A DNA stretch of 64,000 nucleotides from a virus: IMG/VR virus record IMGVR_UViG_3300018080_000128, positions 1 through 64,000 of that record; one strand, written 5' to 3'. This document shows, in pieces, positions 10,283 through 58,480 of the stretch. The notes under the pieces were generated by a model, which was not told the origin of the DNA, ran no database searches, and worked only from the letters and a program-made list of their open reading frames with translations. The position numbers and the translations under genes are program-made. Position 1 is the first letter of the stretch; each line of letters starts with the position of its first letter.

Positions 10283-10552
10283 TTACATTATCCCAGTTAC
10301 GTCATAGTCGAAGCGATAACCACTGGCATTGCAACGCGCCCGCGCATACTCAAGACCCGCCTCATCACCAGACACGATAAACTTCCCCCTTTTAGTAGGG
10401 TGGTCATAAATCCTGTCTCCTCCAACACTATCAGCAAACGCACGTTTCACCCTCCCGTAGTTGTCAATTTTCCTGACCTTCTTGGGTGTCACAGTCCAAG
10501 TCTGCGTGCCTTCTATAAGCATCTCGATTTTTTCGATCAGCTTCCTCATCGC
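10283..10552 (-). CDS. Leader-bearing small protein MRKLIEKIE... (89 aa)
   Basis: Starts MRKLIEKIEMLIEGT, one of the recurrent leaders in this window. LIE|G in the leader fits the L/I-x-E cleavage rule of T4-type prohead proteases. The body (residues 16-89) has WTVTPKKVRKIDNYGRVKRA, then GKFIVSGDEAGLEYARARC, a small compact domain of unknown family. I chose the ATG at 10552, with GGGTGG upstream; a longer reading from 10756 is in the wrong frame style and overlaps the previous gene. Inferred role: an internal head protein carried into the cell. Confidence 0.55.
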   Translation of the reverse strand, partial: AMRKLIEKIEMLIEGTQTWTVTPKKVRKIDNYGRVKRAFADSVGGDRIYDHPTKRGKFIVSGDEAGLEYARARCNASGYRFDYDVTGIM

Positions 10553-10568
10553 AGTCACCACCCGGCGT

Positions 10569-10874
10569 CTATGAGTAGTCGTTAAAGATGACAGCTGCTC
10601 GCTTGAGGCACTTTTGTGCGTCCGCGTAGCATTGCTCGATTTCCTTCTTGTGCTTGTCGGACATCTCGGATTTGCCAAAGCTACCCTTAATGCCTTTGTA
10701 GGTCGCCGCAAGCTGGCGTGCCAACTTGATGGACGCAGTCCAGTTGTTTGCAGCAAAACCAGCTGCCTTGTTAGAGGTTACCTCTTCGAGTTCCCCTTTG
10801 TCAGCCTCGGGTTTTTGCTCCTCGGCGGACTTTTCGATTTTCATTCGGTCGATCATTTCTTGAATTGTGGTCAT
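10569..10874 (-). CDS. Leader-bearing protein MTTIQEMIDRM... (101 aa)
   Basis: The leader MTTIQEMID matches that of the neighbour at 10935-11207 (23 of 24 bases identical), although the bodies differ. The body is helical and charged, with EKSAEEQKPEADKGELEE and ARQLAATYKGIKGSFGKS. T4 internal proteins have the comparable leader MKTYQEFIAE, which sends them into the prohead and is removed by gp21. No enzymatic motif is seen. Inferred role: internal head protein. Confidence 0.55.
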   Translation of the reverse strand: MTTIQEMIDRMKIEKSAEEQKPEADKGELEEVTSNKAAGFAANNWTASIKLARQLAATYKGIKGSFGKSEMSDKHKKEIEQCYADAQKCLKRAAVIFNDYS

Positions 10875-10934
10875 TTTTTTGTTCTCCGATTGATAGCAAC
10901 TATTACCCTGACAACAACCTGGGCCTGGCTACGA

Positions 10935-11207
10935 CTAAACATCCCCTATCAAAACACCCTCGATCTCATCGATAATATGCTCGAACTCATCCTCTATCCT
11001 AGAGAGCGCCATGATAATGCGCTTGTTCTCTTCGGAAGTTAGACCAAAACGTTCTTTTTTCTTGAAAATCCCTACCTGGGTCTCAACCCAGCCCGTCTGC
11101 TTCTCGATAGCCTTGAGAAATGCTTTAGCCTGCTTCTTGCCGACCTCTTCCGCCGAAGAGAACTCTTCGAGGTTTCGCTTCTCGATCATTTCTTGAATGG
11201 TGGTCAT
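10935..11207 (-). CDS. Leader-bearing helical protein MTTIQEMIEKR... (90 aa)
   Basis: Leader MTTIQEMIEKRNLEE, then an all-helical charged body with AKAFLKAIEKQTGW and SRIEDEFEHIIDEIEG. SAEE follows the leader here as in the neighbour at 10569-10874, which points to leader duplication or shuffling. The start has GGAG upstream, and the gene ends 60 nt before the next. No enzymatic motif. Inferred role: internal head protein. Confidence 0.55.
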   Translation of the reverse strand: MTTIQEMIEKRNLEEFSSAEEVGKKQAKAFLKAIEKQTGWVETQVGIFKKKERFGLTSEENKRIIMALSRIEDEFEHIIDEIEGVLIGDV

Positions 11208-12005
11208 TTACTTTTTCTCCATATCAGCAGTGACGGAAATCTCCACGGGTATCCAGATCTCTGTCCGTCCCGATGGCCATTTGCGCCGGGTTGGGTCTAC
11301 GATAGCATCCCCGAGCTTAATCCCGGAGATGTTGACATCCTTCACGGTCCAATCGTTTCTCTCATCCCAACCGACTACTCGCCACACCCAATTGTCTTTC
11401 TTGGATAGCCACTTGTCGGCCTGGGATCCAATGCTACGCATGGCCTTCTTCGCAGCCGAAGAGAAAGCCTTCCGCAGGCCGTCTATGGCGGGCTTGTCCG
11501 TACCTGCAAGGTTGAAGTAATGGTTGGATGCAGCAGCCTCTACAGTGGCCCCTCCGCCGCCTCCACGACCCGGACGAAGAGTAATCACGAAGGTCGCCTT
11601 GCCGCCCTTGAATCGCTTCTTGGTAACGAGGACTTCCCCCTCATAACCGAGACGAATCTTAGGTTTGCCACCGGCCCATTTGGAACCGTCGGGAAGGATG
11701 CCTTTGGCGAAAAACGAAACACCGTTATTGCCCTCTTTAGACTCGGACAACTCAGACGCCTCAATCCCAGAGACAATCCCTTCAATTTGCTCGATCAAGT
11801 TCTTCATATGAGTGCTCTCTGTCTTCCCTGCGATTCCGCATGTGTGCTTTTCGCTGCTACAGATTTTCTTATAAATTGACGTGACGACCGCGTAAAACTT
11901 GTCCGGGTCGGATTTCTCCAGAGAATCACCGTACTCGTCCTTAACGATCTTCTTGGCCTTCTCCCATGTGACTTCGCCATCTTTACCGGCTATCCATTTT
12001 GGCAT
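11208..12005 (-). CDS. Two-part protein: PKWI/KFYAVVTSIYKK domain plus leader-like inner start (265 aa)
   Basis: Residues 1-50 (MPKWIAGKDGEVTWEKAKKI ... KFYAVVTSIYKKIC) form a short domain known from the ends of phage proteins. Residue 67 is a second Met: MKNLIEQIEGIVSGIEA, a leader of the recurrent type, with AGAGAG upstream at 11807. So the frame may make a 265-aa and a 199-aa product. The rest has SFFAKGILPDGSKWAGG and a Gly-rich loop with GRGGGGG (residues about 150), then WRVVGWDERNDW and ISGIKLGDAIVDP. The start ATG at 12005 has GGTGGG upstream. The second half resembles no family I can name. Confidence 0.5.
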   Translation of the reverse strand: MPKWIAGKDGEVTWEKAKKIVKDEYGDSLEKSDPDKFYAVVTSIYKKICSSEKHTCGIAGKTESTHMKNLIEQIEGIVSGIEASELSESKEGNNGVSFFAKGILPDGSKWAGGKPKIRLGYEGEVLVTKKRFKGGKATFVITLRPGRGGGGGATVEAAASNHYFNLAGTDKPAIDGLRKAFSSAAKKAMRSIGSQADKWLSKKDNWVWRVVGWDERNDWTVKDVNISGIKLGDAIVDPTRRKWPSGRTEIWIPVEISVTADMEKK

Positions 12006-12006
12006 C

Positions 12007-12729
12007 TTATTGCCCACCATCAACAATGTCCTTGTCCAGGAAAGCCCTGATTTTGTTTGGGTTCTCCACCTTCCAACCTGGAGAAAAAGACAAAAAGCCA
12101 TCAACATCCAAAGTGTCTCCGCGCATTAGTAGCTTCTTTCTCTTGTTAAAAAGCCACACAACATTTCTGGATGAATCGTTCAGATCGCTCATCCAGCGAG
12201 GCTTGGGCCTGTTTGCATAGAAATCGTTAAACTTCATAATCGCATCACGTATAGCAGAGGCACCACCGTGAGCGCAGGATACACTAAGGGCTTTGACCCA
12301 AGCCTCATAGTTCGACTTCCTGTACTCATCATCTTCTTTTTTCTTCTTCAATGCCCGCTCGGTAGTAATCTTGGCCTTGATCTTGTCAAGCTGTGACTTC
12401 TTAAGCTCACGAGGATACCCAAGAATCATATGCAGGTGATCCCCGCCGTAAGGAAGAATATCTCCCTCTTTCGTCTCAACCCAATATACATGCACAATCC
12501 TGCGACGGCACGACGCACAATTCATCGCATTGTCCCAATCACTCACTTTCTTAGAAACAAGACCATCCTCTTTCTTGCTCCAAACCTCATCCCACATCCA
12601 CTTCCACTCGTACGCGATGGCTTTGTTGCCGTTCGGCCCCTCGACAACCTTGGACTTGGCAGCTTTTTTGACCCAAGAAGGAATGACAGATTCATGAAGC
12701 TGTATATATCTCTCGATCAACTCACGCAT
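12007..12729 (-). CDS. Leader-bearing protein with CxxC motif (240 aa)
   Basis: Leader MRELIERYIQLHESV with LHE|S as possible cleavage site. It continues with SWVKKAAKSKVVEGPNG, then NCASCRRRIVHVYWV (CxxC), then GDHLHMILGYPRE and a charged helix around residues 120-150, and ends WLFNKRKKLLMRGDTLD. A single CxxC pair plus the GDHLH motif might bind zinc. No family is recognised. Start at 12729, with GAGAGG six bases upstream. It is followed 2 nt later by the next gene. Confidence 0.55.
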   Translation of the reverse strand: MRELIERYIQLHESVIPSWVKKAAKSKVVEGPNGNKAIAYEWKWMWDEVWSKKEDGLVSKKVSDWDNAMNCASCRRRIVHVYWVETKEGDILPYGGDHLHMILGYPRELKKSQLDKIKAKITTERALKKKKEDDEYRKSNYEAWVKALSVSCAHGGASAIRDAIMKFNDFYANRPKPRWMSDLNDSSRNVVWLFNKRKKLLMRGDTLDVDGFLSFSPGWKVENPNKIRAFLDKDIVDGGQ

Positions 12730-12817
12730 GATAACCTCTCTCAAATGGCAAAAAAACAACGCCCTTAAATAAATACCACACGAACAATACCATTGTCATT
12801 AAACGCGGAACAGGCAG

Positions 12818-13189
12818 CTAGATGGAAGAAATAACAGCTTTCATAACTTTACCAACAACGTGGCCAACATCCGTGAAGAATTTGCTAATCCGATCCTTCC
12901 GATCAGCCTCAAGCATCTGACGGATACACAGAATGTCATTCATGGACCATGGGCTCAAAAACGAAAGATCGGGGTTGCCACCGTCGGCCACCTCCATGAA
13001 TGCTTCGCGAGCCAGCTCGACGCCGCTCCATCCATTCCTGGAGACAGAGTCCATGATGACGTTAATGATCGCCAATTGCCACGGGCTCTTGGCCACCTCC
13101 CGAAGGTAGGCAATCGCTCCGTTCGCTGCCTCCGTATCCTTCACCCCTAACTTCTGATGGGTCGCCAATAGAATGTCGTGCATCGTCAC
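12818..13189 (-). CDS. Unknown protein (123 aa)
   Basis: Not recognised. Mostly helical: DTEAANGAIAYLREVAKSPW, FMEVADGGNPDLSFLSP, then a basic C-terminus with KFFTDVGHVVGKVMKAVISSI. I start it at GTG 13189, six bases after GGAGG. A short basic frame at 13062-13298 overlaps it and shares its upstream site. Confidence 0.5.
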   Translation of the reverse strand: MTMHDILLATHQKLGVKDTEAANGAIAYLREVAKSPWQLAIINVIMDSVSRNGWSGVELAREAFMEVADGGNPDLSFLSPWSMNDILCIRQMLEADRKDRISKFFTDVGHVVGKVMKAVISSI

Positions 13190-13298
13190 TGGGTGCCTCC
13201 ATCCATGTTTCCTGTGCTTCTAGCGCCCCCATCATCCTCCGAGCAGAGCGTTGCCGAGTTCGGAATGACTGATGGATTCTCCGTCGGACGTTCTTCAT
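13062..13298 (-). CDS. Possible overlapping basic small protein (78 aa)
   Basis: An ATG at 13298 follows GGGAGG with a five-base gap, the best ribosome-binding site in this stretch. The encoded sequence (MKNVRRRIHQSFRTRQRS...) is very basic at the N-terminus, then low in structure. It overlaps the gene at 12818-13189 by 128 nt, which is unusual. It could be a real short gene, a fossil or a decoy start; I cannot tell which from sequence alone. Confidence 0.3.
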   Translation of the reverse strand: MKNVRRRIHQSFRTRQRSARRMMGALEAQETWMEAPSDDARHSIGDPSEVRGEGYGGSERSDCLPSGGGQEPVAIGDH

Positions 13299-13331
13299 TG
13301 ATACCTCCCAGGAATCGCATAAAAGCCGCCC

Positions 13332-13347
13332 GCGAACTTGAGTTCGT
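13332..13347. promoter_or_regulatory. Gene-junction palindrome copy 3 (imperfect flanks)
   Basis: GCGAACTTGAGTTCGT. It touches the stop of the 13347-13577 gene and lies 33 nt before the start of the possible small gene at 13298. Confidence 0.7.
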
Positions 13348-13577
13348 CACGTGATCACTCCTATTCCAGGCGGAACCAGAGCAGAACCACCCGGAGCTTC
13401 CGTCACGGATACCTCTGCGTTAGCCACTATGTAGTCTATGATCGCCGCCGCCTCTTTGTTCAGAGCCGGAGCATCCTTCTCCACCCTGTAACTCTTCCCC
13501 CACGCCTCTTTGCGAGCAGCAGCTATGGCGCCAGCAAGACCAGTCCCCAATAAAGCGTCCCCTGCCTCAAGCGCCAT
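13347..13577 (-). CDS. Unknown small protein (76 aa)
   Basis: Not recognised. An Ala-rich helical protein (LAGAIAAARKEAWGKSY, AAAIIDYIVANAEVS) ending PGGSALVPPGIGVIT, a C-terminal tail that looks flexible. It overlaps the end of the gene before it by 11 nt. Its stop lies in the junction palindrome. Confidence 0.5.
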   Translation of the reverse strand: MALEAGDALLGTGLAGAIAAARKEAWGKSYRVEKDAPALNKEAAAIIDYIVANAEVSVTEAPGGSALVPPGIGVIT

Positions 13578-13842
13578 TTTCTGCCTCCTCGGACTTCAAT
13601 TGCAACAATTTCAAAGCGACGCTCATGACTTGAGCAACGGACCCGCCATGCTTCTTTGCAAGATCTTCCATCGCATTGAACGTTACCCTCGGAACGAGCA
13701 TCATCACAAGCTCGTCCATGTTCTCTGCCTGGACACTGCCAGCGGTAGACGGCTCTCTGCTCGCCGGAGCAGGCTTCTGGACCGGTCGAGCAACGGGCTC
13801 TTCTCTGCTATCAGCAGTGCATTCTACAGCCTTCATCGCCAT
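13567..13842 (-). CDS. Small protein with ribbon-helix-helix-like C-terminus (91 aa)
   Basis: A proline/alanine-rich N-terminus (residues 1-40) precedes VPRVTFNAMEDLAKKHGGSV and AQVMSVALKLLQLKSEE, a short strand-helix-helix pattern that may be a CopG-like DNA-binding domain. Its start overlaps the stop of the gene before it by one base (TAATG). The regulatory role is an inference. Confidence 0.4.
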   Translation of the reverse strand: MAMKAVECTADSREEPVARPVQKPAPASREPSTAGSVQAENMDELVMMLVPRVTFNAMEDLAKKHGGSVAQVMSVALKLLQLKSEEAENGA

Positions 13843-14627
13843 TACAACGCCCCCCCGCCCTTGATCTTGTTAAGGGGGCGCTTGCCGCCCTTGTTCACAT
13901 TGTCGCTATTGGGGTTTTGAAATGCGTATCGAACCTTTGTGTTGTCGTCCAAGGCATGGCCAACAGCATACACAACCTTGTCAATTGGATCCTGATGAAT
14001 CTGCCTAAATGTCAGCGATACGGACGCCTTGCGGGGTGTTCCATCCGGAAAGCACAATTGATAATTGACGTCGCAACCTGTCATAATGCAGTAAATTGCG
14101 TTCCCGCCTGTGGCGTCCCCTAATCCCATTTTGGGCATAGACAAAATAGCGACAGGCGGAGGATATGCAGTCCTGTAAGAGTCGACGTCCGCATAACATG
14201 GATAGCAAAACGCACGGAGCCACTTGATCTCTTGAACCACATCCACATTGTGTGGACGGTTGGTCTTTATAATGTCGTTCTCAGGCCGGTTTAACTTGAA
14301 CGGATCGAGCACAGTCTCAAAGAAGTTACGAGTCTTAACGGGCTTCATTAGCCTGTGAAGATGAACCTCGAAAGCAATCGTTCGGCCCGAGTTCCCAGAC
14401 CACTGGGCCAGGGCCGAAGATGCACCTGGTATATCCTTCCAGTTCCAGCCCACATCAATCGTGTCCGTGACCGTCTCCGGCCAATACTGAAAGGTGTGCT
14501 CTCCGAGATCTCCAAGAGGCTTGCCTGTCTTAGGGTTGATCCCAAGCATAGACGCAGCCTTGTAATCGGATCCTTCCGGACCATACATGATCGACTCAAC
14601 TATTGATCCGATGACTCCAAGGGCCAT
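13842..14627 (-). CDS. CIS-tube/baseplate-like structural protein (261 aa)
   Basis: An N-terminal segment FQYWPETVTDTIDVGWNW, followed by SGNSGRTIAFEVHLHRLM, matches the style of the CIS-tube N-terminal domain (as in PVC7/Afp7 proteins and T4 gp48/54 tube-initiator relatives): 'FQFNP....W....G..RTL.FE...D'. The C-terminal half has YCIMTGCDVNYQLCFPDG and SVSLTFRQI, the second tube-like strand set. A role at the baseplate-tube junction is likely, placed away from the main baseplate cluster. Confidence 0.6.
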   Translation of the reverse strand: MALGVIGSIVESIMYGPEGSDYKAASMLGINPKTGKPLGDLGEHTFQYWPETVTDTIDVGWNWKDIPGASSALAQWSGNSGRTIAFEVHLHRLMKPVKTRNFFETVLDPFKLNRPENDIIKTNRPHNVDVVQEIKWLRAFCYPCYADVDSYRTAYPPPVAILSMPKMGLGDATGGNAIYCIMTGCDVNYQLCFPDGTPRKASVSLTFRQIHQDPIDKVVYAVGHALDDNTKVRYAFQNPNSDNVNKGGKRPLNKIKGGGAL

Positions 14628-14629
14628 GA

Positions 14630-15160
14630 CTACTCCTCTTCTGAGATGTACTTGCCTATGATCGCCCTAACCTTGGCACCAGCGCTCCGATGCTCATCCG
14701 TAACAACCCGAACATCATTGATGCCTAGATTGCGATTAGGCACCATCATGGTCGCACCCTCTGGTAACACAAAATCTGTATTGCCCAGACAGGTAGATCC
14801 ATCCGAGATAACCTCGTCAAAGGCTTCTCTCTTGTACGTGGGAGAAGCCGGAAAACTATCGATCTCTGCTGTCAGATCAGAATGCACACTGTCCAAGGCA
14901 GAGATAGCACCCTCTATCTCTGCAAAGAACTCAGGGCTCTCCGATTTCAGCGCAGGATCGTTATCCAGGACAGCCTGAAGAGCCTCTGATGTAGATCTCG
15001 CACGATTAGCCAGGCTGGACGCGACATTCCTGTCAGATTCATTATTCCGAGACACTGCTAACAACACCTTCCCCACTCTCTCCATCATTTTTTTAGCGTT
15101 ACCCCGATGATCAACAGGATTGATCGTTTTCTTTTTTCTTTTTTTCACAACAATGCCCAT
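14630..15160 (-). CDS. Unknown structural-region protein (176 aa)
   Basis: A very basic start (MGIVVKKRKKKTINP) leads to helical segments (KVLLAVSRNNESDRN, SEALQAVLDNDPALKSES) and a C-terminus with ATMMVPNRNLGINDVRVVTD. AGGAGG lies before the ATG and is formed in part by the stop codon of the upstream gene. Not recognised; its neighbours suggest a tail or baseplate role. Confidence 0.45.
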   Translation of the reverse strand: MGIVVKKRKKKTINPVDHRGNAKKMMERVGKVLLAVSRNNESDRNVASSLANRARSTSEALQAVLDNDPALKSESPEFFAEIEGAISALDSVHSDLTAEIDSFPASPTYKREAFDEVISDGSTCLGNTDFVLPEGATMMVPNRNLGINDVRVVTDEHRSAGAKVRAIIGKYISEEE

Positions 15161-15169
15161 GGAAGCCTC

Positions 15170-17827: not shown

Positions 17828-17829
17828 TT

Positions 17830-48250: not shown

Positions 48251-49295
48251 TATCGCCTGCGTCTCGGTCTTCCGCCCGCCGATCCAGTCGAGGCTTGCTG
48301 TCTGCGAATGTTCTCTTGCATTTTTTCAACGAATCTCTTCCTTCTGCTCCAGGGTATCGACATTGCGTCAGAGTACCCATAACCTTGAATCTCGATCAGG
48401 AAGAAGATCTCGCTTTCGAGAACGTCTACTTGACCGACGGGAAGAAAAAAGACGGATTGCCAACGTTTAACTCAGATTCCCACTGAGCCTGGCAAGCCGG
48501 GCACGTGAATTCTACATCTGTATCGACACTCCCCTCCATCTGGGGATACACCTCACGGAACTGATTCCGCTCACGAGACGGACGATCCTGTAAAAACTCA
48601 ATAGCCTGCTTGGTCCCGCGAGGAGTGTTTCTGTCGATAACGACGTCATCAACCTTGTCGATACGGGACAACATAGCCATTGTGAACGGGCTCTCGTTTC
48701 GGAGAGAACGCTTCATTCCCTGTAACCAGGACTCGTCCTTCGCAACCATAACATGCCACGTGTACACAGCACCTGTACACATCTCCTGGCTCATCGTCCG
48801 AACCATTGGATTAGGCATAGGAGAAATCTCTAGCCCTGAAATATCCAGAGTGAATCGACTCTTGGTTCCGCATGACTCCTTCGGGCAAGTGATCGAAACG
48901 TCGTAGTGATCACCTAGAGAAAGCCTGCGGATCGCGATAAGCGAGATCAGGCGATCCGAGGAAGACATCTGAGCCACCATGTTGGAGATGACTTTACGGT
49001 CATCAATGGAGCCCACCCGAAGCGTACAGTTGATAATGACCTGACTCAATCGCTCGACCAGATCCCCTGTCCCACCGAGAAGATCCTCCTCTTTGCCGGT
49101 CATCTCTTTGAACGTGATCGTCCTGTGCAGGTCTTCTCCGTGGATACACCCGCACGGAAGATCTACAGTGATCGTTCCTGGGCCAGCATCCAGAGCGTGT
49201 CCCTTGGTCTTTCCAACATCAACGACGGTGTTTTCAGCGTCAACTGGCGCCTCGTCAACCTTGCTACCAACAACCTCAATCTTGGAATCTGTCAT
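48250..49295 (-). CDS. Probable -1 frameshift product of the chaperone gene (348 aa)
   Basis: Reading continues from codon 284 into the -1 frame at T TTT TTC (48450-48444). This adds 64 codons: LPVGQVDVLESEIFFLIEIQ, then YGYSDAMSIPWSRRKRFVEK and MQENIRRQ, then a basic tail to TAA at 48252-48250. That frame has no start of its own that could produce it alone (its first ATG is in the middle of the extension). The segment 'EIFFLIEIQGYGYSDAMSIPW' shape fits the second part of tail assembly chaperones (aromatic helix plus basic tail). Programmed -1 shifting to fuse the two is well known in phage tail-chaperone genes (lambda G/GT and others). Confidence 0.7.
48426..49295 (-). CDS. gp26-like tail assembly chaperone, unshifted form (289 aa)
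   Basis: A gp26-type protein: TVDLPCGCIHGEDLHRTITF (N-terminal), then DRLISLIAIRRLSLGDHYD, a cysteine region TCPKESCGTKS, and CPACQAQWESELN at the end. The cysteines probably hold zinc. In myoviruses this gene lies before the tape measure gene and makes a chaperone for it. The ATG overlaps the end of the ribbon-helix-helix gene. A slippery T TTT TTC sits near the 3' end, so a second, longer product is likely (see 48250-49295). Confidence 0.65.
   Translation of the reverse strand: MTDSKIEVVGSKVDEAPVDAENTVVDVGKTKGHALDAGPGTITVDLPCGCIHGEDLHRTITFKEMTGKEEDLLGGTGDLVERLSQVIINCTLRVGSIDDRKVISNMVAQMSSSDRLISLIAIRRLSLGDHYDVSITCPKESCGTKSRFTLDISGLEISPMPNPMVRTMSQEMCTGAVYTWHVMVAKDESWLQGMKRSLRNESPFTMAMLSRIDKVDDVVIDRNTPRGTKQAIEFLQDRPSRERNQFREVYPQMEGSVDTDVEFTCPACQAQWESELNVGNPSFFFPSVK
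48444..48450 (-). other. Slippery heptamer T TTT TTC (-1 frameshift site)
   Basis: On the minus strand the bases read TTTTTTC with codons TCT TTT TTC in the chaperone frame, an exact X XXY YYZ heptamer. It is near the end of the reading frame, a usual place for a -1 shift in tail-chaperone genes. Confidence 0.65.
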
Positions 49296-49590: not shown

Positions 49591-49591
49591 T

Positions 49592-50383: not shown

Positions 50384-50411
50384 TTGACAACAACTAGCCC
50401 CTAGATAATAT
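50384..50411 (+). promoter_or_regulatory. Strong sigma70-like promoter for a small RNA
   Basis: TTGACA (50384-50389), 16-nt spacer, TAATAT (50406-50411), one of the best promoters in the window. No gene starts within reach on this strand, only the hairpin at 50437-50477. Confidence 0.65.
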
Positions 50412-50417
50412 CAAGTG

Positions 50418-50485
50418 TGTCCCCCCTTTTCTTCTCGTCGGCATAGAATGGCCCCTGAACCTCCGTTCTATGCCGACATCTTTTC
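50418..50485 (+). ncRNA. Probable small RNA of about 65 nt with C-rich hairpin loop
   Basis: The predicted transcript starts near 50418 and runs through a pyrimidine-rich 5' part (ccccccttttcttc) into a 12-bp perfect stem GTCGGCATAGAA / TTCTATGCCGAC (50437-50448 with 50466-50477), ending in TCTTTTCTC. The 17-nt loop contains ACCTCC, which pairs with Shine-Dalgarno sequences (GGAGGT). The stem-plus-U-run may serve both as the RNA's own terminator and as the terminator for the 49776-50350 genes. An RNA role is inferred from promoter-hairpin spacing. Confidence 0.5.
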
Positions 50486-50487
50486 TC

Positions 50488-50503
50488 GCGAACTCAAGTT
50501 CGC
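50488..50503. promoter_or_regulatory. Gene-junction palindrome copy 7
   Basis: GCGAACTCAAGTTCGC, two bases after the stop of the Cys-rich lipoprotein gene. On the minus strand it is followed by GAGAAAAG and then ATG TCG GCA TAG, so a vestige of a start may remain where the plus-strand island was inserted. Confidence 0.75.
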
Positions 50504-50505
50504 AA

Positions 50506-50838
50506 CTAATAACACCCGCCAACATCACGACAAGATTTAGCAGCAGCGACACATTTTGTATTCAAGTCAGACTCAGGGTTAATGTCTATGCTCCCACATA
50601 CCTCTACGCACGCCACGTCGTCCCCTGTGCCGTACTCTCCATCATACCCAGGGGAACCTTGCCACCCCTCGCACTTAAGCTCTGCCATGCGCTTGCACGC
50701 CGCCTCGCACTGCCCCACGACGACCACAGGATCCCTTGGAACATTAGGTCCAGGGGGATTGCGAGTCTCTTGAACCACGTTGCACTTCGGAAACAAGACG
50801 GCTATGGCCGCTAGCACAGAAACGATAAATACATTCAT
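50506..50838 (-). CDS. Cys-rich lipoprotein-like protein (110 aa)
   Basis: Starts MNVFIVSVLAAIAVLFPKC, a short hydrophobic signal ending in a possible lipobox-like FPKC. The body has paired cysteines: CEAACKRMAELKCEGW, VACVEVCG and CVAAAKSCRDVGGC. Such Cys-rich domains are found in lipoproteins of delta-type bacteria and their phages. Start at 50838, overlapping the protease stop by four bases (ATGA), with GAGG upstream. It may be exported and act at the envelope, for example in lysis. Confidence 0.55.
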   Translation of the reverse strand: MNVFIVSVLAAIAVLFPKCNVVQETRNPPGPNVPRDPVVVVGQCEAACKRMAELKCEGWQGSPGYDGEYGTGDDVACVEVCGSIDINPESDLNTKCVAAAKSCRDVGGCY

Positions 50839-51611
50839 CTTCTCAACCTCGACCAACCTCTTATGGAAACAAAATCGCTCGTCTCCTCCCAGGTCATGTA
50901 ATCCTCGGACATCCTGCAAAACCCCTCGTCCCCAAACTCTCTCCCCCAGCTGTTCAGCACATCAAATTCTACTCCCCCGTCGGACGCAGTCTTGTATCCC
51001 ACTATCAGCATCGCATGGCCGCCACCCGTCACCGTCTTTGGCCTGCGGATAAGCCCCCCGTCTGCGCGATCCGTGAAGTTATCATGCAGCATTGTGCCAA
51101 ACGCGACGGGATAGCCCGCGCAAATCGATGACATTATCTCCCGCACGAGGCGATCGTCCTTGGATTTAATGAACGCATACTCACCGTGCATACGCGAGTG
51201 TGCACGCATATGCGAAATCCATGGCGGTATCTCATTCATTCGCCCATCATCCCATTTAAACGACCTCTCAGGAGGAGCCCCGAACCTAAACAAAGCAGAG
51301 GCTGCCGACCTCATATAAGCGCCAGAGTCAGAGATCACATTGCTGTTCACCCGCCTAGCATAATAATACAAAAAACGCCTGGATATAGGATCGTCCCTAA
51401 GCCCGGCCTTGCTCTCAATGATGCCTACTGCACTGGCCAGCGCATGAGCAACACAGGAATTCGTTCGCCCCTGGTCGTGGACATGCTTGACGAATCCCTT
51501 CAGAGACCATGCCACAGCTGTCGTTTCCGAGATCCCAAAACTCGCTAGAAGAAGATGATCACGCCTATCCTCTTTCTGCCTATTCCACCCCGTCCACTGG
51601 AACTCGCTCAT
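50835..51611 (-). CDS. Papain-like (C1A) cysteine peptidase (258 aa)
   Basis: The catalytic cysteine is in GRTNSCVAHALASA (residues 49-62), the histidine in VTGGGHAMLIVGY, and the asparagine in VLNSWGREFGDEGF. These are the C, H and N of papain-type enzymes in the correct order. It lacks a signal peptide or long propeptide, so it acts in the cytosol or virion. It lies among genes of putative internal and lysis proteins, with lipoprotein and ADP-ribosyltransferase-like genes next to it, so it might process virion proteins or attack host proteins. Confidence 0.75.
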   Translation of the reverse strand: MSEFQWTGWNRQKEDRRDHLLLASFGISETTAVAWSLKGFVKHVHDQGRTNSCVAHALASAVGIIESKAGLRDDPISRRFLYYYARRVNSNVISDSGAYMRSAASALFRFGAPPERSFKWDDGRMNEIPPWISHMRAHSRMHGEYAFIKSKDDRLVREIMSSICAGYPVAFGTMLHDNFTDRADGGLIRRPKTVTGGGHAMLIVGYKTASDGGVEFDVLNSWGREFGDEGFCRMSEDYMTWEETSDFVSIRGWSRLRR

Positions 51612-51613
51612 TG

Positions 51614-52573
51614 CTAAAGCCTCTCTATGTCCAAAACTGGAACTTTGCCTTTGCCCACCACCTGATAATCAGAAACACGACCAGTCTTGAGCGTTCGAAC
51701 TAGATTCTTGTCGCTGATCTTGATCTTCCAAAGATCCCGGCCCTCGGTCCCTCCAAGCTCCCTGCCAAATCCCTCGGCGCGGTCAGCACTTGTGGTGACA
51801 AAGATGCCAGTAGGAACCCCCTTGGCGTTGTCGTATATCCTGCGATCTTTAACAGGACGCGCCGTGTAAACTGTCACCGCCTTGCCAGATTTCTTAACAC
51901 TAGAAGGATCTCTGATCGCCTGCACCAGCTTAAAGTAGTCAGCCGCATCCTCATCGTTTTTAAAGAAATCCCTGTCTCCGAAGTCCAACACATCATCGAC
52001 TTCACGAGGACCGAAATAAGTAAAAGAAGGGGTGCTGTGACTAGGTTTTGCACCGCCATGAACCACCACCTCAACGGCATAAACATCAAGAAATGAGCTA
52101 TTCCCGTCTTTCAGTATCATTGGATAAAACGTGACGCTACTCTCAACACCGGCCTTGGCCGCCATTCTGGACACAGAGCTGGCCATCTTCCATGCCTTCT
52201 TAATCGCTGTCCTCTTATAACTATCGATTTCCTTATCAACATCCCAGTCTAGCTCCCGGCCACGACTAAGTGTGTACTCGGCAAGATCTCGAATCTTATC
52301 TTCGATCACTCGATCAGCCTTTGACATGTCAATGTTGAGCTTGCCGATTCCTTCGAGAATGACAGACCCATAACCAGTGCTCTCAAGCACAAACGTAGAA
52401 CTTGAAATCGTCCCGCCGTCCACCGAGATCATCCCGATCTCAACAGGTGTCTTCTTCTTTTTCTTGGACTTGCTTGTGATCTTTTCTACGTCGAAGATCG
52501 TCCCTCCCATCGAACGGCTAACAGTAAGAAAAGGTCCGGGGACAGAGGCTATATTCGCGGTGGTGGTAACCAT
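51614..52573 (-). CDS. Possible ADP-ribosyltransferase-like protein (319 aa)
   Basis: N-terminal region (1-150) has EIGMISVDGGTISSSTFVLE and a long helix; the C-terminal third carries VTVYTARPVKD, then GVPTGIFVTTSADRAEGFGR and LWKIKISDKNLVRTLKTGR, which looks like an ADP-ribosyltransferase fold (R, then S-T-S-type strand, then the closing strand). The final ExE glutamate cannot be assigned. T4 Alt, an internal head protein, is an example of a phage ADP-ribosyltransferase. Read this as a hint, not a proven function. Confidence 0.4.
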   Translation of the reverse strand: MVTTTANIASVPGPFLTVSRSMGGTIFDVEKITSKSKKKKKTPVEIGMISVDGGTISSSTFVLESTGYGSVILEGIGKLNIDMSKADRVIEDKIRDLAEYTLSRGRELDWDVDKEIDSYKRTAIKKAWKMASSVSRMAAKAGVESSVTFYPMILKDGNSSFLDVYAVEVVVHGGAKPSHSTPSFTYFGPREVDDVLDFGDRDFFKNDEDAADYFKLVQAIRDPSSVKKSGKAVTVYTARPVKDRRIYDNAKGVPTGIFVTTSADRAEGFGRELGGTEGRDLWKIKISDKNLVRTLKTGRVSDYQVVGKGKVPVLDIERL

Positions 52574-52615
52574 GCAATCGTCCTTTCGTCGTCGAAGACA
52601 ACGCGCTAGATCTTG

Positions 52616-52644
52616 ATAATACGTGGAACACTCAAAAGCCGCAA
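52616..52644 (-). promoter_or_regulatory. Promoter candidate (minus)
   Basis: TTGCGG (52644-52639), 17-nt spacer, TATTAT (52621-52616), 43 nt upstream of the 51614-52573 gene. The 52574-52680 gap holds no other gene. Confidence 0.45.
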
Positions 52645-52680
52645 ACTGCTATACATCGCGCATAGCCAAAAGATCTCTAA

Positions 52681-53004
52681 CTAGCCGACAAGCCTCAAAA
52701 CAACCTTGGCTCCGGCATCCGTTCGCTTGACAATCACCGAGCCCACTTCTGGCATCCCAGCGAATCTCCGGACTATCTGGTTACCCACGGATACCGAGTA
52801 CCTGCCCTCCATGATCATAACCAGTCGGGCACCCTCCTCTCCAGGGTGCGACTCGAACACGCACCTGGAGATAGAGCGACCCTTTGTGGCCCTCTCTCCC
52901 TGTGTCCTTAGCGAGCGATAAAGACGCTCTTCCAGCTTGGTAAGGCGAGCTTGCCCCTCTGGAACCTCTATGAATTCGTTGAGCTTCGACGCTAAATCTT
53001 TCAT
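52681..53004 (-). CDS. Leader-bearing protein MKDLASKLNEFIE... (107 aa)
   Basis: Begins MKDLASKLNEFIEVPEG, a weaker form of the recurrent leader (LNE|F). The body contains TKGRSISRCVFESHPGEEGA and RLVMIMEGRYSVSVGNQIV, a short beta-rich domain of unknown family. Start at 53004, overlapping the amidase stop by one base (TGATG), with AAAGGA upstream. Confidence 0.5.
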   Translation of the reverse strand: MKDLASKLNEFIEVPEGQARLTKLEERLYRSLRTQGERATKGRSISRCVFESHPGEEGARLVMIMEGRYSVSVGNQIVRRFAGMPEVGSVIVKRTDAGAKVVLRLVG

Positions 53005-53948
53005 CACAGTCCTTTTCCCGCTCTATCGATCAAGTCCTCTAGCATGTATCGGCCATCGGCGTGGCTTGAATAATCCCTGTGGCAAACCACCCCAGAGGCA
53101 GGAACAGCACGAGGCTTGACGTTCCAGCCCTTGATCTTTCTCTTGCCAGGCCCCAGATCAGCAGTCGGGAATACGTATGGAATGGATAGCACATTGCACA
53201 ACCAGGGCACAAGAATTCGAATGACTACCAGCTGTTCCTCTGTCGGCTTCACATATCGCTTAGGTGCGCCTTTTGGACACCATGTCCACCACTGAGCCGG
53301 GATCTCATCATCCGGCCCCCACGGTGGCTTAGAATACTTAGGGCTATACGGATTCACTACCTCAATACCAATCGATGTCTTGTTCAGCTGGTTACCATGA
53401 GTCATTACATCTCTCACGAGATCTCCGTGACAGCTCAAGTCCCCGCTTGGCGCGAGAATCAACTGAACTCCGTACTTCTTTGCCAGCAACGTTCTCTTGC
53501 ACCCCTCAGCCGTTGTCCCCGCCGTCTCATGCAACACAAAATGCCGAAGCGGAGACCTTCTGTTTCGACGGTTGAAACGAGGCTCTCCGTCGTCCAGATA
53601 ATTCGCCGCAGAAAACCCCGCGTCGATAAGCACATCCGGGATCTGGATCCTCGCGCCGTCCACAACAACACAGTTGGACTTCCATGGCTGCATAATCGTC
53701 GGCTTCTCAAGAGGAGTGTTGTCTCTCTCTTTTCGAACCTCTTTGATCTTGGCCAGCGTGCCCTTGCCCAGCTTGCCATCGATAGTCAACTTGTTCTCAC
53801 TCTGAAATAGCGCAACAGCCCACGCAAAACCCGAAGCAGAGCCCTCCCATGACCATGGCCAAGGAAGAGCAGCTACGTCGTACAGATCACCAGCCTTTCG
53901 AGCGTTGTATCTTATAGCCTCGTTTAGCTCGTCACGCTTTATCATCAC
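53004..53948 (-). CDS. N-acetylmuramoyl-L-alanine amidase endolysin (314 aa)
   Basis: Amidase_2-type: zinc ligands H in RHFVLHETAG, then a later pair in VCHRDYSSHADG. Residues 1-70 hold a peptidoglycan-binding-like segment (FQSENKLTIDGKLGKGTLA). It cuts the bond between muramic acid and the stem peptide of peptidoglycan. No signal peptide is seen, so it needs a holin; the holin-like gene at 55313-55600 lies three genes upstream. Start at 53948, overlapping the next gene upstream (stop at 53945). Confidence 0.85.
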   Translation of the reverse strand: MMIKRDELNEAIRYNARKAGDLYDVAALPWPWSWEGSASGFAWAVALFQSENKLTIDGKLGKGTLAKIKEVRKERDNTPLEKPTIMQPWKSNCVVVDGARIQIPDVLIDAGFSAANYLDDGEPRFNRRNRRSPLRHFVLHETAGTTAEGCKRTLLAKKYGVQLILAPSGDLSCHGDLVRDVMTHGNQLNKTSIGIEVVNPYSPKYSKPPWGPDDEIPAQWWTWCPKGAPKRYVKPTEEQLVVIRILVPWLCNVLSIPYVFPTADLGPGKRKIKGWNVKPRAVPASGVVCHRDYSSHADGRYMLEDLIDRAGKGL

Positions 53949-54427
53949 ATCAGCCTCATTCCTTGGAGCATGGCCTTGTCACGGGATTTGTTCTTCTTCA
54001 CCTTACGCATCGTTCGATTCAGAGACCCTATGCTGACATTGCGATTCACGAGCCATCGCATATGCGCCAACACAGGAGCAAACCCCTCCAACGCAGCGAT
54101 ATAGTCCCCAAACGGGACGTAGATAATCGTGCGGTACCAGAAGCCGAGCATCTTTTTCGTCCACTCGATGACTATCCGAACTTCCCCCATGTCAGGATAA
54201 GACTTGAACGTTAACCTCACCTCTCCAACTTCTTTGTGTCGGTTGTTGACTATCTTCGAATGTAAAATGAGCTTGTTATTAGGACCTTGTACAGCTGTCC
54301 ACTTTGCAAAGGATCTAAGGATCAGCCGCTTTTCCAGCAAAAGGTCACGGGACAAGATCGCCATGGACCGAACTTGATCAGGAACATTGACTCGATCTTG
54401 AACTTCAATCTCCGGTGTCTGTTCCAC
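53945..54427 (-). CDS. Unknown protein (160 aa)
   Basis: Not recognised. Starts with GTG after GGGAG. Sequence: MEQTPEIEVQDRVNVPDQVR, then KIVNNRHKEVGEVRLTFKS and a C-terminal basic part (NRTMRKVKKNKSRDKAML). No membrane segment. It is coupled to the amidase gene by a four-base overlap. Confidence 0.5.
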   Translation of the reverse strand: MEQTPEIEVQDRVNVPDQVRSMAILSRDLLLEKRLILRSFAKWTAVQGPNNKLILHSKIVNNRHKEVGEVRLTFKSYPDMGEVRIVIEWTKKMLGFWYRTIIYVPFGDYIAALEGFAPVLAHMRWLVNRNVSIGSLNRTMRKVKKNKSRDKAMLQGMRLM

Positions 54428-54469
54428 TTTGCGCTCCCGTCAAAAAATGCCTTCGTAATCAGGCGAGCT

Positions 54470-54793
54470 TTACTTCGCCGCCTTTTCCAGCTCCTTAACG
54501 ACACCGTTCACGAAGTCTTGCAGCTTCTTAGCATCTGGAAGAAGGTACTTTTTCACATACTCTGAAGCCGTCTGATAATGTGCCCCAGACTTCTTGAGTT
54601 GAGCGGTTCCCTTCTTGGCATCCTCAAATCTATTCATCAACAAAGAGACCTTCTTGCCGAGCGTCTTCTCAACCATGCCATACGACTGAATCATCTCGTA
54701 TGCCTTGTCCTGCGGATCGCCACTGTCGTCCTTCTCCATGAGATCCGAATCCTGCGCTCGAAGCTCGTTTATCCTCTCGACTATATCTCTCAT
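54470..54793 (-). CDS. Leader-bearing helical protein MRDIVERINEL... (107 aa)
   Basis: Leader MRDIVERINELRAQD with INE|L and later DLMEKDD. The body is helical: AYEMIQSYGMVEKTLGKKV, TASEYVKKYLLPDAKKLQD and FVNGVVKELEKAAK. Similar to other leader-bearing proteins in length and composition. Inferred role: internal head protein. Confidence 0.55.
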   Translation of the reverse strand: MRDIVERINELRAQDSDLMEKDDSGDPQDKAYEMIQSYGMVEKTLGKKVSLLMNRFEDAKKGTAQLKKSGAHYQTASEYVKKYLLPDAKKLQDFVNGVVKELEKAAK

Positions 54794-54834
54794 TGGTTTT
54801 CTCCGTGATTAGATTTGCGACCCTTGAATCTTAC

Positions 54835-55311
54835 TTATACAACAAATCTGTTTGAAATCGAAGTTTGGAAAACTGGCCACTTAGTGGAGTAACCTCTGGA
54901 CTTGACGAACTTAGCGATGCCTTCGCTGACCTCGTCGTAGGAATCCATCGCAGAAAGCTCAAAGGATTTAGGCTTCTCACCTTCAAGAGTGAACGTGAAC
55001 CTGGTCCCTGCTACGCCCCCAGGCTTTACAAGCGGCTCTGCTTCCACAGTAGCGTCAAGAACCATCTCCTTACCATCTTTGTATAGCTTGACCTCAGACG
55101 TAGAGGATAGATCCCCAGACGCCTTTCTAACCATGGACATACCAGGCAGAGCAGCTGCTACCATCCTAACAGCATGAGCAAACCACTCCTCGGCTGAATC
55201 CTGAATCGCCCCGATCATTGTATCGTGATCTTTCTTGCGTGCGCCTCCACGAGAACGCTCTGTAATCTGGTCTCCCGCGAAACCTTCGAGTTTTTCGATT
55301 ATCTCGTGCAT
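54835..55311 (-). CDS. Leader-bearing protein MHEIIEKLEGF... (158 aa)
   Basis: Leader MHEIIEKLEGFAGDQ, then a body with EEWFAHAVRMVAAALPGMSM and a beta-rich half (SSTSEVKLYKDGKEMVLDAT, TRFTFTLEGEKPKSFELS). No enzyme motif. Inferred role: internal head protein. Confidence 0.55.
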   Translation of the reverse strand: MHEIIEKLEGFAGDQITERSRGGARKKDHDTMIGAIQDSAEEWFAHAVRMVAAALPGMSMVRKASGDLSSTSEVKLYKDGKEMVLDATVEAEPLVKPGGVAGTRFTFTLEGEKPKSFELSAMDSYDEVSEGIAKFVKSRGYSTKWPVFQTSISNRFVV

Positions 55312-55312
55312 A

Positions 55313-55600
55313 CTACTCCTCCAGCCTCATAAGGCCCTCGTCTCTGTCAATATCTGGCCCATCGTCGTCTTCGACTAGCATTTCAGGTTCAACTGAGTGG
55401 GCCACAGGCGGCGGAACAGCCCCCCTGGCGACGCCATGGTCCGCAACTCCCTGCGCAAGGATATAGGCCGACAGAACGCCCAGAGCGGCGTACACAGCAT
55501 CGTCACTCACAGGCTTTCCAACCGCATCGTTAACAACAATGCAGATCGCCGCGAATATACCGATGATCAACTTCCTTGATTTGAGTTTCGATGAAACCAT
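55313..55600 (-). CDS. Holin-like small membrane protein (95 aa)
   Basis: Two hydrophobic segments, KLIIGIFAAICIVVND and YAALGVLSAYILAQGVAD, separated by a short polar stretch (VGKPVSDDAV), then an acidic, proline-bearing tail. The size and layout fit a class II holin. It lies three genes upstream of the amidase, the usual partner. Start at 55600, with GGGAGG before the ATG. The call is topological only. Confidence 0.55.
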   Translation of the reverse strand: MVSSKLKSRKLIIGIFAAICIVVNDAVGKPVSDDAVYAALGVLSAYILAQGVADHGVARGAVPPPVAHSVEPEMLVEDDDGPDIDRDEGLMRLEE

Positions 55601-55662
55601 TGACGCCTCCCTGGGGATTTCAACTTGCAAGAGATGCTTACAAGCTCACCGGTAACACTCCG

Positions 55663-57477
55663 CTAATTACTGTTCCAGATTGCAACCACATCCATAATCG
55701 ATCCACGAGGGTTACCTACGATCTCATCGACTCTCCAGCCCGCCGCTTTCGCGGTGTCCCATATATCGGATATGAGTTCCTTGTCGGACATCGAGTAGTA
55801 CCCGTTGTTATGGTCTTTCACCTTCTGCTTCACACGGCTAAGATGAGGCTTCCACGCCTTCGCCACTTCAGGCGGGACCGATCCCTTGCCTTCTTTTAGC
55901 CATGATCTTTCAACAGGCGGCATCTCATCAGGGTAGACGGGTGGAACTGTTCCGTTCTCCTTGTGCCACCCACTCTGCCATTCCTTCACGACATCCACTT
56001 CGCAGTCAGCCTCTTGGATCCTCAGCATCCCCATCAACCTTGCGTCATGAAGCGGCGTGTTTTTCATCCCGCCGAACCGAGCCTCCCTGCCTAGCCTGAA
56101 AGCCTTCGATGCCTCCTCTGGTCTAGACACAGCCTCAGAAAGATCACCAGAGTAATCCTTCTTTATTCTATTAATGACGGATCCCAGGCCAGACCCCTTC
56201 GCAATGGACGCATCTCCCTCTGGAAATAAATGCTTGTTCAGCGCAAGGCCCAACTTCCGGTCGGCGTAATTCTTAACAGCGCCCACCTCGTAGTCCCCGT
56301 CGCCCAGGTTCGTTTGATAGACATTGACGAACCCGTTCAACGTCAACCACGCTTTGAGACCGCGTGGATCCTTATCCTTTTCGTTAGCATGAAAGAGGAT
56401 CCGGAAAACAAAGGGACCGTCGCCGGACGACTTGCTGAAATGCCAGAGACTTGGAAAGCCAGCTTTTGCGATGTCCTTGTTTAGCGCTTTCTTAATGGCG
56501 GCAACTGTCTTCTTGACAGCATCCCTGGACATCTTGCCCTCTTTGCTCTTCTCAGCCGCAACATACGCCTTGGCATACGCTGCGACAGCTTTCTTCTCAT
56601 TCGGTAATAGCGCGGCCTCTTCGAGGTTTTCCTCATCAACTGATTCATGCTGCACTTGGTTGGTCGCCTTGGCTAAAGCGCTAACCAACCGGTGGATTCC
56701 GTCAAAGTCTTTGAGGCCCTTATAGAGATCGTCCAAAGCCTTGACCACCTTGTCCAAAGCTGAGCGAGCATTCGAAGGGAACATCTTCTTATAGTCGCCT
56801 GACTTCATTAGCTCCTCAGCCGCAGAATACGCCTTGTAGGTCGATGCGAGCGCTTCGTGTATAAGCTCCTCGTTGTCGTCGTCGGCTTGAAAAACATTCT
56901 CGTAGTCATCGCCCGCTTTGGCATCGAGAGGCTTAAGAGTAACCTTTGGCTTCTTGGCAGCTTTCGCCTCGGAAATACACAATCCTCCCTCGACCGACTC
57001 CGTCTTAAGGCCATCGACCGCCTTGGCAAAAACCTTAACCGCTTTGTCTATATTACGCATTGACCCTACCGCGTCATTAACGTCGTTACCTATCTTGTAT
57101 ATTTGCTCTATTATCTTCCGGGCCTTTGGGGGGAACATTTCTTTGTAGTCGCTTCGCTTCAACAAATTACGAGCCGAGAGAGTAGCCTTCGTGAGCCTTA
57201 TCGTAGCGTCAGCTACCTCACTCTCACTGTATTCGTCAGCCCCTAAGATGTCCTCAACTTTCTCCATCGATTCTTCGTCGATAGGGATCTCTTGGCCCTG
57301 GGCCTCTTCGATGCGGTCCACAAATCCAGGACGATCAAGGAAGGCCAGTCCTTCTTCAAGCGTCCTGGTTATAATCTCAGCCCTGCGTGCGCCCGTGCTG
57401 ACCATGCTTGCGGCCTCTTCCACCCCACAAGGCCCAGCGTCTTCGTTTGCCATTATTGATTTTTTTGTATCTTTCAT
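55663..57477 (-). CDS. Repeat-domain protein with many (I/L)xE|A sites, putative internal head protein (604 aa)
   Basis: Contains repeated helical domains: SDYKEMFPPKARKIIEQIYK and SGDYKKMFPSNARSALDKVV are clear copies about 125 residues apart. Six stretches fit the T4 prohead-protease rule (I/L-x-E followed by A): RIEEA, ISEAK, IHEAL, NLEEA, LSEAV and IQEAD. They space the protein into segments of about 50-150 residues, as if it were cut into several products. It lies among the leader-bearing genes. No catalytic motif is visible. Inferred role: an internal head polyprotein. Confidence 0.5.
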   Translation of the reverse strand: MKDTKKSIMANEDAGPCGVEEAASMVSTGARRAEIITRTLEEGLAFLDRPGFVDRIEEAQGQEIPIDEESMEKVEDILGADEYSESEVADATIRLTKATLSARNLLKRSDYKEMFPPKARKIIEQIYKIGNDVNDAVGSMRNIDKAVKVFAKAVDGLKTESVEGGLCISEAKAAKKPKVTLKPLDAKAGDDYENVFQADDDNEELIHEALASTYKAYSAAEELMKSGDYKKMFPSNARSALDKVVKALDDLYKGLKDFDGIHRLVSALAKATNQVQHESVDEENLEEAALLPNEKKAVAAYAKAYVAAEKSKEGKMSRDAVKKTVAAIKKALNKDIAKAGFPSLWHFSKSSGDGPFVFRILFHANEKDKDPRGLKAWLTLNGFVNVYQTNLGDGDYEVGAVKNYADRKLGLALNKHLFPEGDASIAKGSGLGSVINRIKKDYSGDLSEAVSRPEEASKAFRLGREARFGGMKNTPLHDARLMGMLRIQEADCEVDVVKEWQSGWHKENGTVPPVYPDEMPPVERSWLKEGKGSVPPEVAKAWKPHLSRVKQKVKDHNNGYYSMSDKELISDIWDTAKAAGWRVDEIVGNPRGSIMDVVAIWNSN

Positions 57478-57541
57478 AACTCACATCCATTTCATCCGGT
57501 AAAGACGCCAGCCCTGAACATCGCCAGGCCGCGCTTGCAAA

Positions 57542-57853
57542 TCAGGGCAGTGTAGTGATTTCCGTAAACCCAAGACTTGCGGCTAGTTTCTTAGCCATGG
57601 TCTTGGCTTTCCCATAACTCGCGAAAGGCGATCTAAACCAAGTTTTGTCTCTCTTGGAAGAATCCAGGTAGTCCTTGCTGCTCCCTGCGCCTGGGCCGAA
57701 CCCAAACATCCACTGACCTTCACCCTTTGGCTTACCATGCGAACGAATGTACATGTCTTCCCTTACACGCACATCTTTGGCCCGTACCTTCTCTTCCGAT
57801 ATGTCATCGGACTGAGCGTGCTTGTTCGTTATCTTCTCTATCAGATCTCTCAT
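57542..57853 (-). CDS. Leader-bearing protein MRDLIEKITN... (103 aa)
   Basis: Leader MRDLIEKITNKHAQSDDISE, with ISE|E. The body has DMYIRSHGKPKGEGQWMFGF and KRDKTWFRSPFASYGKAKT, and is basic and aromatic. No known domain. Inferred role: internal head protein. Confidence 0.55.
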   Translation of the reverse strand: MRDLIEKITNKHAQSDDISEEKVRAKDVRVREDMYIRSHGKPKGEGQWMFGFGPGAGSSKDYLDSSKRDKTWFRSPFASYGKAKTMAKKLAASLGFTEITTLP

Positions 57854-57871
57854 GGATGACCCCTTTGTGCC

Positions 57872-58480
57872 TCAGTGGGCTTTTTTCATTTTGTCTACAA
57901 GCGCCTTGCCCTTAGCTTTGTTGGCAGCGAATGGATCCAGCGGAGGATTTTTTGCTTCCTTCTCGTACCCAGCTACCATGGCCTTCATCCCGACCTCTCC
58001 ACCATCAGTAGAGTAAACATCGCGAAGCTGACCCCAGACATGAGCAAGATCGCCATAGAAATCCAAGCGAGGGATACTCCCAAGATCATTCATCGCAGCT
58101 TCGACGTGCTTGGTCGCGCTCTTGAACAGCTTGGCTCTTTTCTTGAAATTGGCAGGAGTCTTTTCGTCTAGGTCCTTCCTGGTCCTCGGATAGACGTACT
58201 CCTTAACCTCCAAAATCTCGCCCGACCCATCTTCTGCTGACTCTTCGGCCTTGCCTTGAACCTTCTTGGCAACATCCGTCAGCGCATCACTGAGCTTGCG
58301 CAAAAATGCAGCAGCCTTCTCATCCTCGGCGCTTGCTACAGCGAGCCCCTTGAGAAGCTGGACCATCTTGAAATACGCGTCCGAGTCTTTGTAGTCCGTG
58401 TCCCTGAGTGCCTTGATGACACCCTCCGATTCCGAACCTTCTACTATGTACTGTTCGACCATCTCTTGAAGTTTCATCTC
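57872..58480 (-). CDS. Leader-bearing helical protein MKLQEMVEQYIVEG... (202 aa)
   Basis: Leader MKLQEMVEQYIVEGSESEG, with IVE|G at the position expected of a protease site. Body: LLKGLAVASAEDEKAAAFLR, then ATKHVEAAMNDLGSIPRLDF and a Lys-rich tail (NKAKGKALVDKMKKAH). Helical, charged. Start at 58480 with AAGGAG upstream; the palindrome 58492-58507 and the promoter 58516-58544 lie directly upstream, so it heads its own unit. Confidence 0.6.
   Translation of the reverse strand, partial: EMKLQEMVEQYIVEGSESEGVIKALRDTDYKDSDAYFKMVQLLKGLAVASAEDEKAAAFLRKLSDALTDVAKKVQGKAEESAEDGSGEILEVKEYVYPRTRKDLDEKTPANFKKRAKLFKSATKHVEAAMNDLGSIPRLDFYGDLAHVWGQLRDVYSTDGGEVGMKAMVAGYEKEAKNPPLDPFAANKAKGKALVDKMKKAH

Follow-up and report, generated by a model that had tools for sequence, protein, structure and literature searches.

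The window analysed here spans the opening 64 kb of virus record IMGVR_UViG_3300018080_000128, which at 103,827 bases covers part of the genome of a large myovirus. Ten proteins encoded on the minus strand of this window have unlike bodies and begin with similar short leaders. A preliminary description had interpreted these leaders as capsid-targeting signals of internal head proteins, and all ten are confirmed. The shared N-terminus is most probably a capsid-targeting leader that works like that of phage T4, with a consensus of its own and a larger set of cargo proteins. Support for the internal-head-protein interpretation comes from the shared leader itself, from a prohead protease of family S77 encoded by the record, from an enrichment of [LI]xE sites behind the leader, and from the recovery of T4's internal proteins (IPs) in a blind search of N-termini.

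A shared leader on unrelated bodies

The mean pairwise N-terminal score of the ten leaders is 18.2. Shuffling each leader lowers it to 10.3 +/- 0.57 (z 14; maximum 12.3 among 2,000), and the best of 5,000 random ten-gene sets scores 11.4, none reaching 18.2. For the proteins at 10283 and 11208, this test uses the starts of the preliminary description. Chance, or a reader's selection of similar short N-termini, has almost no probability left as an explanation and can be regarded as already refuted: a selection-corrected search for the densest ten-set in 30 shuffled gene sets scores at most 14.4, and the leader recurs in relatives. Its one source of encouragement is phage lambda, which reaches z 4.6–5.6 in the blind search without a clear motif, so that z alone overstates. 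The densest real ten-set (18.2) joins eight of the ten proteins with two others, the capsid protein and the 80975 protein.

Relatives were collected by searches with the sheath and capsid proteins. A first scan, which took its matrix from the ten leaders and used a 0.5% shuffle level and the gene caller's own starts, finds the leader in 17 of 260 genes of genome G011 (1.30 expected), 13/307 in G003, 7/267 in G015, 4/107 in G002, 3/64 in G007, 3/71 in G014 (covered from 49 to 106 kb with the standard bacterial code), 1/214 in G009 (1.07 expected) and 1/56 in G006. The counts for the record itself (G000, 9/111) and for G001 (10/225) provide no independent test because both are the same phage, the source of the matrix; G001, a 157-kb contig, is 99.8–100% identical across the window. 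An iterated scan at the 0.3% level, in which alternative starts with a ribosome site are allowed, yields 21 matches in G011, 19 in G003, 13 in G015, 12 in G001, 9 in G000, 7 in G007, 6 in G002, 4 in G014, 3 in G009 and 0 in G006, and some of its low scorers are probably chance. The preliminary description had proposed a genome-wide search, and the leader proves far commoner than chance both here and in relatives. Carriers would number roughly 10–20 per genome in the longer contigs. As in the window, matches fall mostly into two clusters in G000, G011 and G015; G003 has three clusters, two of them at opposite contig ends.

From 85 rows, 72 leader-bearing N-termini were kept (70 at 11 bits or more and two window proteins added by hand), and blastp sorts their bodies into 56 clusters. 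The leader consensus is MRxLIE[RKQ][LI]E. Among 52 cluster representatives (at least 12 bits, or added by hand), Arg2 is present in 40, Leu4 in 43, Ile5 in 43 and Glu6 in 46, frequencies that illustrate rather than test the motif because the representatives were chosen with the same matrix. Conservation fades past residue 9–13. Adding five window proteins, two of which share a representative's body cluster, gives the 57-row set used below.

Conservation acts at the protein level, since the 40 Arg2 residues use all six arginine codons and the 43 Leu4 residues all six leucine codons. A DNA- or RNA-level element that codes incidentally for the leader, such as a translation enhancer, a recombination patch or a regulatory motif, could explain why AGA supplies 11 of the 40 arginine codons at residue 2, an excess over its 9% share in bodies, and why the leaders at 10569 and 10935 share 23 of 24 nucleotides. 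The codon diversity at the conserved positions already makes such an element highly improbable, and the window has no Rfam match at gathering scores; a tRNA scan of the window also found nothing. Among 19 related pairs, mean identity is 0.47 for leaders and 0.60 for bodies, and the leaders of unrelated bodies are 0.40 identical. The closeness of 0.47 to 0.40 fits a degenerate signal that is kept, not copied, and the three values together speak against leaders as DNA cassettes generally. The earlier suggestion that leaders were shuffled as cassettes applies at most to 10569 and 10935, which alone look recently copied: their bodies are unlike, and identity falls from 23/24 nucleotides in the leader to 13/24 in the 24 bases that follow. 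A second start inside the leader is found in 8 of 72 carriers and 65 of 1,597 control genes, a weak difference.

The ten proteins, all on the minus strand, lie in two groups. The first comprises 10283..10549 (MRKLIEKIEMLIE/G, the slash marking the putative cut; leader ~10511-10549), 10569..10874 (MTTIQEMIDRMKIE), 10935..11207 (MTTIQEMIEKRNLEE), 11208..11807 (MKNLIEQIEGIVSGIEASE) and 12007..12729 (MRELIERYIQLHE/S). The second comprises 52681..53004 (MKDLASKLNEFIE), 54470..54793 (MRDIVERINELRA), 54835..55311 (MHEIIEKLEGFAG), 57542..57853 (MRDLIEKITNKHA) and 57872..58477 (MKLQEMVEQYIVE/G). Gene calls come from a dedicated caller rather than Prodigal, and this caller picked other starts for 10283, 11208 and the 5299 gene described below. 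The start of 10283 is uncertain, since its ribosome site is weak and another possible start lies upstream. The weakest of the ten is 52681 (MKDLASKLN), whose body is conserved and whose N-terminus varies among 8 related proteins. Separate parts of the 57872 body match separate proteins in relatives. Pfam and PHROG searches with all ten proteins give no match better than E 0.01 (best E 0.012).

The 11208 leader begins at an inner start of a longer open reading frame (ORF), and the orthologous ORFs in G003 and G011 start at that same point. About 71 extra in-frame residues (11808-12020) precede the leader, which could reflect either the fusion of a small protein upstream or a leader gene that starts inside the ORF. 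In an AlphaFold model of this protein the body is well folded and the leader is a low-confidence tail (residues 1–27 at pLDDT, the predicted local distance difference test, <50) with a low-confidence helix at residues 2–14. A structure search with the body finds no clear fold; its weak matches (Z <5) include several tail-terminator and neck proteins.

A cleavage-like site and the head protease

Columns past residue 10 played no part in leader selection. In the 57-row set, [LI]xE ends at residue 13 in 10 proteins (0.7 expected) and within residues 11–22 in 27, compared with 15.7% of control genes; at residues 41–52 of the same proteins' bodies it appears in 4 of 54. An [LI]xE at the leader end is best described as a feature of the population, not of every protein, and is a predicted cleavage site. 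The sites LIE/G, IVE/G and LHE/S singled out earlier do exist. Five G015 leaders of the form MR[SHQ]L[IL][RE][QR]LEE/A place the site at residue 10, which is itself a matrix column. In the propeptide region of the capsid protein, [LI]-[LM]-E is conserved in 15 of 15 aligned capsid proteins.

The gp21-like protease whose presence the preliminary description had proposed to check is encoded outside the window, at record positions 86760-88520. It is a head maturation (prohead) protease of the gp21 family S77 (phrog_207; PF03420 at 87942-88382). A gp23-type major capsid protein (phrog_138) is also encoded outside the window, at 85132-86730, which gives the record both genes that mark a T4-type capsid-targeting sequence (CTS) system. 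Of 23 relative records, 14 have an S77 protease, and several of the remaining nine are short fragments. At 586 residues the record's protease is much longer than T4 gp21, and its long C-terminal part is perhaps a fused scaffold.

In the proposed mechanism, the leader M-R-x-L-I-E-[RKQ]-[LI]-E is a short peptide that probably forms a helix and measures ~10–20 residues, cleavage site included. The prohead core or scaffold would recognise this peptide, and the proteins that carry it would be enclosed as the shell forms. The S77 protease would then cut after [LI]-x-E at or just past the leader. The freed bodies would remain with the DNA and enter the next host by injection, where they would probably target host defence or host metabolism.

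Since the consensus is helix-like and charged, it might instead be an amphipathic helix with another shared role, such as membrane association, oligomerisation, chaperone binding or stability, and no part in packaging. This alternative is unlikely: the preference for the particular residues R2, L4, I5 and E6 goes beyond mere amphipathicity, a protease-type site follows the leader, and a blind search of T4 yields its internal proteins.

Comparison with T4 and other phages

The blind search looks for the densest group of similar N-termini in a genome, with paralogues masked. In T4, its first four proteins are 61.1, ipII, ipIII and ipI (k=5: 28.5, compared with a shuffle maximum of 22.5), of which ipI, ipII and ipIII are annotated as internal virion (head) proteins. 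The N-terminus of gp61.1, MKTFKEFIKE, is like the T4 internal-protein leader. Two uncultured huge phages, LR756508 (covered from 51 to 297 kb) and LR756511 (451 to 595 kb), were read with the standard bacterial code throughout. In LR756508, eight proteins share M[KR][LIV]x[EQ]xxLxx[ILV][IV] (k=8: 36.0, compared with 21.0 shuffled), with no body pair at E <1e-3. LR756511 has MKTFxxW-type leaders (k=8: 29.5, compared with 18.5 shuffled), which look closer to those of T4. S77 proteases are present in both huge phages and in T4, and an S77 search finds no match in lambda or SPO1. These N-termini are a sign that huge phages may have their own versions of the head leader. XG4, SPO1, G009 and G006 show no leader, with z values from -1.0 to 2.2. 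In G001 (pieces L043-L051), the top blind cluster is made up of several small proteins that share a Cys-rich N-terminus.

Contractile injection systems use N-terminal signals for cargo loading, and the leader could in principle send cargo not to the head but to the tail tube or baseplate. One leader cluster does adjoin the tail tube and sheath genes, and the tail-terminator and neck proteins among the weak matches of the 11208 body point the same way. Routing to the tail is nevertheless quite improbable in view of the [LI]xE enrichment and the S77 head protease, the distance of the window's 10.3-12.7 kb cluster from the tube and sheath genes, and the nature of the recovered T4 proteins, which are head proteins. 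It also sits poorly with the 83813 gene, a neighbour of the capsid gene outside the window: its own leader is weak (7.3 bits), and its G002 orthologue bears a clear one.

For T4 IPIII, ten N-terminal residues are enough, of which residues 4 and 7 serve targeting and residues 8 and 10 processing (PMC9026906). The T4 internal proteins form a diverse counter-defence set with only the CTS in common (PMC3012670; also PMC9391042), and T4 Alt is a CTS-bearing, injected ADP-ribosyltransferase (ART) (PMC7411985; T4 annotation). Like the CTS of IPI, IPII, IPIII and Alt, the leader described here is short, N-terminal and attached to unrelated bodies, and it is associated with an [LI]xE-type site, an S77/gp21 protease and a gp23-type capsid. 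An ART-like protein, identified here by predicted fold only, is likewise among the carriers. The two systems differ in consensus (MRxLIExxE here, MKT[YF]xEF in T4), in the number of carriers per genome, which is higher here (~10–20, longer contigs), and in the position of the site, which is often three residues later (residue 13); the T4 leader length, with its site at residue 10, is matched by the five G015 leaders. The likeness to T4 drawn in the preliminary description thus holds for the kind of leader, site and protease, and is doubtful for sequence, in which the match to T4's own is not close.

Phage P1 provides a further parallel in DarB, whose N-terminal residues are sufficient to carry a reporter into the head (PMC9024508). 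This too is an N-terminal capsid signal; it differs in that its authors report no N-terminal consensus for the Dar proteins and in that the signal is placed at >9 and <30 residues (PMC9024508). The ejection proteins of SPN3US and phiKZ are also head proteins trimmed by a gp21-related protease, with a targeting role proposed for the propeptide, but their propeptides may reach considerable length (111 residues in gp47) and the motif is A-x-E in SPN3US and S-x-E in phiKZ (PMC7411985, PMC5694885). Among the titles listed by searches of Creative Commons (CC)-licensed literature, none concerns leaders of the present kind in this clade or in huge phages. The T4-type CTS is already known as a kind; what is new is the lineage-specific consensus, the number of carriers, the conservation in a clade and the huge-phage sign. 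The clade appears to lack a near relative in the phage collection, where the capsid protein matches 2,495 records, every one at <60% identity, the top-ranked being an uncultured 595-kb phage (31.9% identity over 90%). The same protein finds no relative in the genome-contig collection.

Several observations weigh against a capsid-targeting role. No [LI]xE ends within residues 11–22 in 30 of the 57 leaders, and helix periodicity by itself could put a glutamate at residue 13. The window's own ART-like protein has no MR-leader, and the weak structural matches of the modelled 11208 body would fit a neck protein. Neither Alt nor the core proteins enter the blind group in T4, no shared leader is detectable in XG4 despite its S77 protease, and lambda, which has no S77 match, still shows its weak, motif-less excess. 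The clade matrix ranks T4 ipII and ipIII 51–52 of 264, ipI 112 and alt 34; the ten-leader matrix ranks ipII and ipIII 5–6 of 264, ipI 105 and alt 45, with other genes higher. The poor scores of the T4 internal proteins under the clade matrix imply that the two kinds of leader differ in sequence, either as analogues or through wide divergence.

Cargo candidates and neighbouring genes

Two families among the carriers, KTSC and ART-like, speak for real cargo. The KTSC protein (PF13619) at 5299..5649, minus strand, is a further leader protein of the window and begins MRALIEAKMIE. With the caller's start it had passed for a leader-less KTSC orthologue, a view overturned by an in-frame upstream ATG at 5649. 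Its relatives in G003, G009 and G011 bear MR(E/L)LIEQ, and the relative in G015 has no leader.

The cargo candidate at 51614..52573, minus strand, contains an ART-like predicted domain at residues ~196-319. Leaders in its family read MRTLLERMDELDVLILE/S in G002, where the protein was found by homology and not by the matrix scan, MRSLIRQLEE/A in G015, and M(I)LRRLTDELGFVLLE/S in G003 and G011. In the window's protein, residues 1–78 are of low model confidence and hold VLE/S and ILE/G. The model has a mean pLDDT of 58.5, with a better C-terminal domain, and its best VIA match has Z 8.3, a value near 8 being borderline according to the tool (root-mean-square deviation 2.1, 80 aligned). Most of the 50 VIA matches listed are tRNA 2'-phosphotransferases, PARPs or ADP-ribosylating toxins, and the C-terminal domain thus has mostly members of the ART superfamily as structural neighbours. 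Foldseek ranks first 1wfx (APE0204, a KptA) and two further entries for KptA (E 3.4e-3 to 4.8e-2, prob 0.95–1.00), and none of its matches reaches E 0.001. Because the overall model is of modest quality, an ART-like fold is suggestive for this family. A PDB sequence search with both modelled families has best E values of 0.33 and 0.53.

The 56 leader proteins have no match in PADLOC. In Pfam and PHROG they match one KTSC family and nine PHROG families, one protein each. One G001 protein (L044:4793-5173) matches phosphoheptose isomerase and polynucleotide kinase families; an AGGAGG within its leader codons is a strong ribosome site from which an inner start could be served, and two forms of this protein, with the leader optional, are possible.

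Amid the leader genes, at 55663-57477, lies a 604-residue protein in which internal repeats can be made out by eye. It matches the internal head proteins of phiKZ below threshold (PF12699, E 0.0093) and is possibly another protein of this kind. Family matches identify a sheath protein at 62394 and a T4-type baseplate protein at 48426. The two tube proteins, at 60145 and 58550, both belong to phrog_4542. The gene at 58550-60127 appears to be split into two tube halves by an intein-like insert, CLDEDTEIL...GNC (by eye), and its paralogue at 60145-60669 is uninterrupted. An intein-like insert, matching an HNH endonuclease, also occurs in the portal protein (948 residues, record 90518-93364, outside the window; phrog_213). 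A papain-family cysteine peptidase lies at 50835-51611 (PF00112, E 2.8e-10). The N-termini of 144-1397 and 3600-4709 appear, from a motif, to resemble TnpB/OrfB-type transposon proteins.

A phage first acts against host defences through the proteins that it injects along with its genome, and in large uncultured phages these proteins are hard to list. If a lineage-specific tag marks injected proteins, the list becomes readable from the genome. The chances are about even that each phage lineage with gp23 and S77, including uncultured huge phages, has its own head-entry tag, diverged together with its scaffold, on 10–20 injected proteins, and that such arsenals could be read from sequence. If this is true, small proteins without known function would gain a testable role in anti-defence or host takeover, and phage heads could be loaded with chosen proteins by means of new tags. 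A targeting signal would then be retained on unrelated bodies, yet drift between phage lineages.
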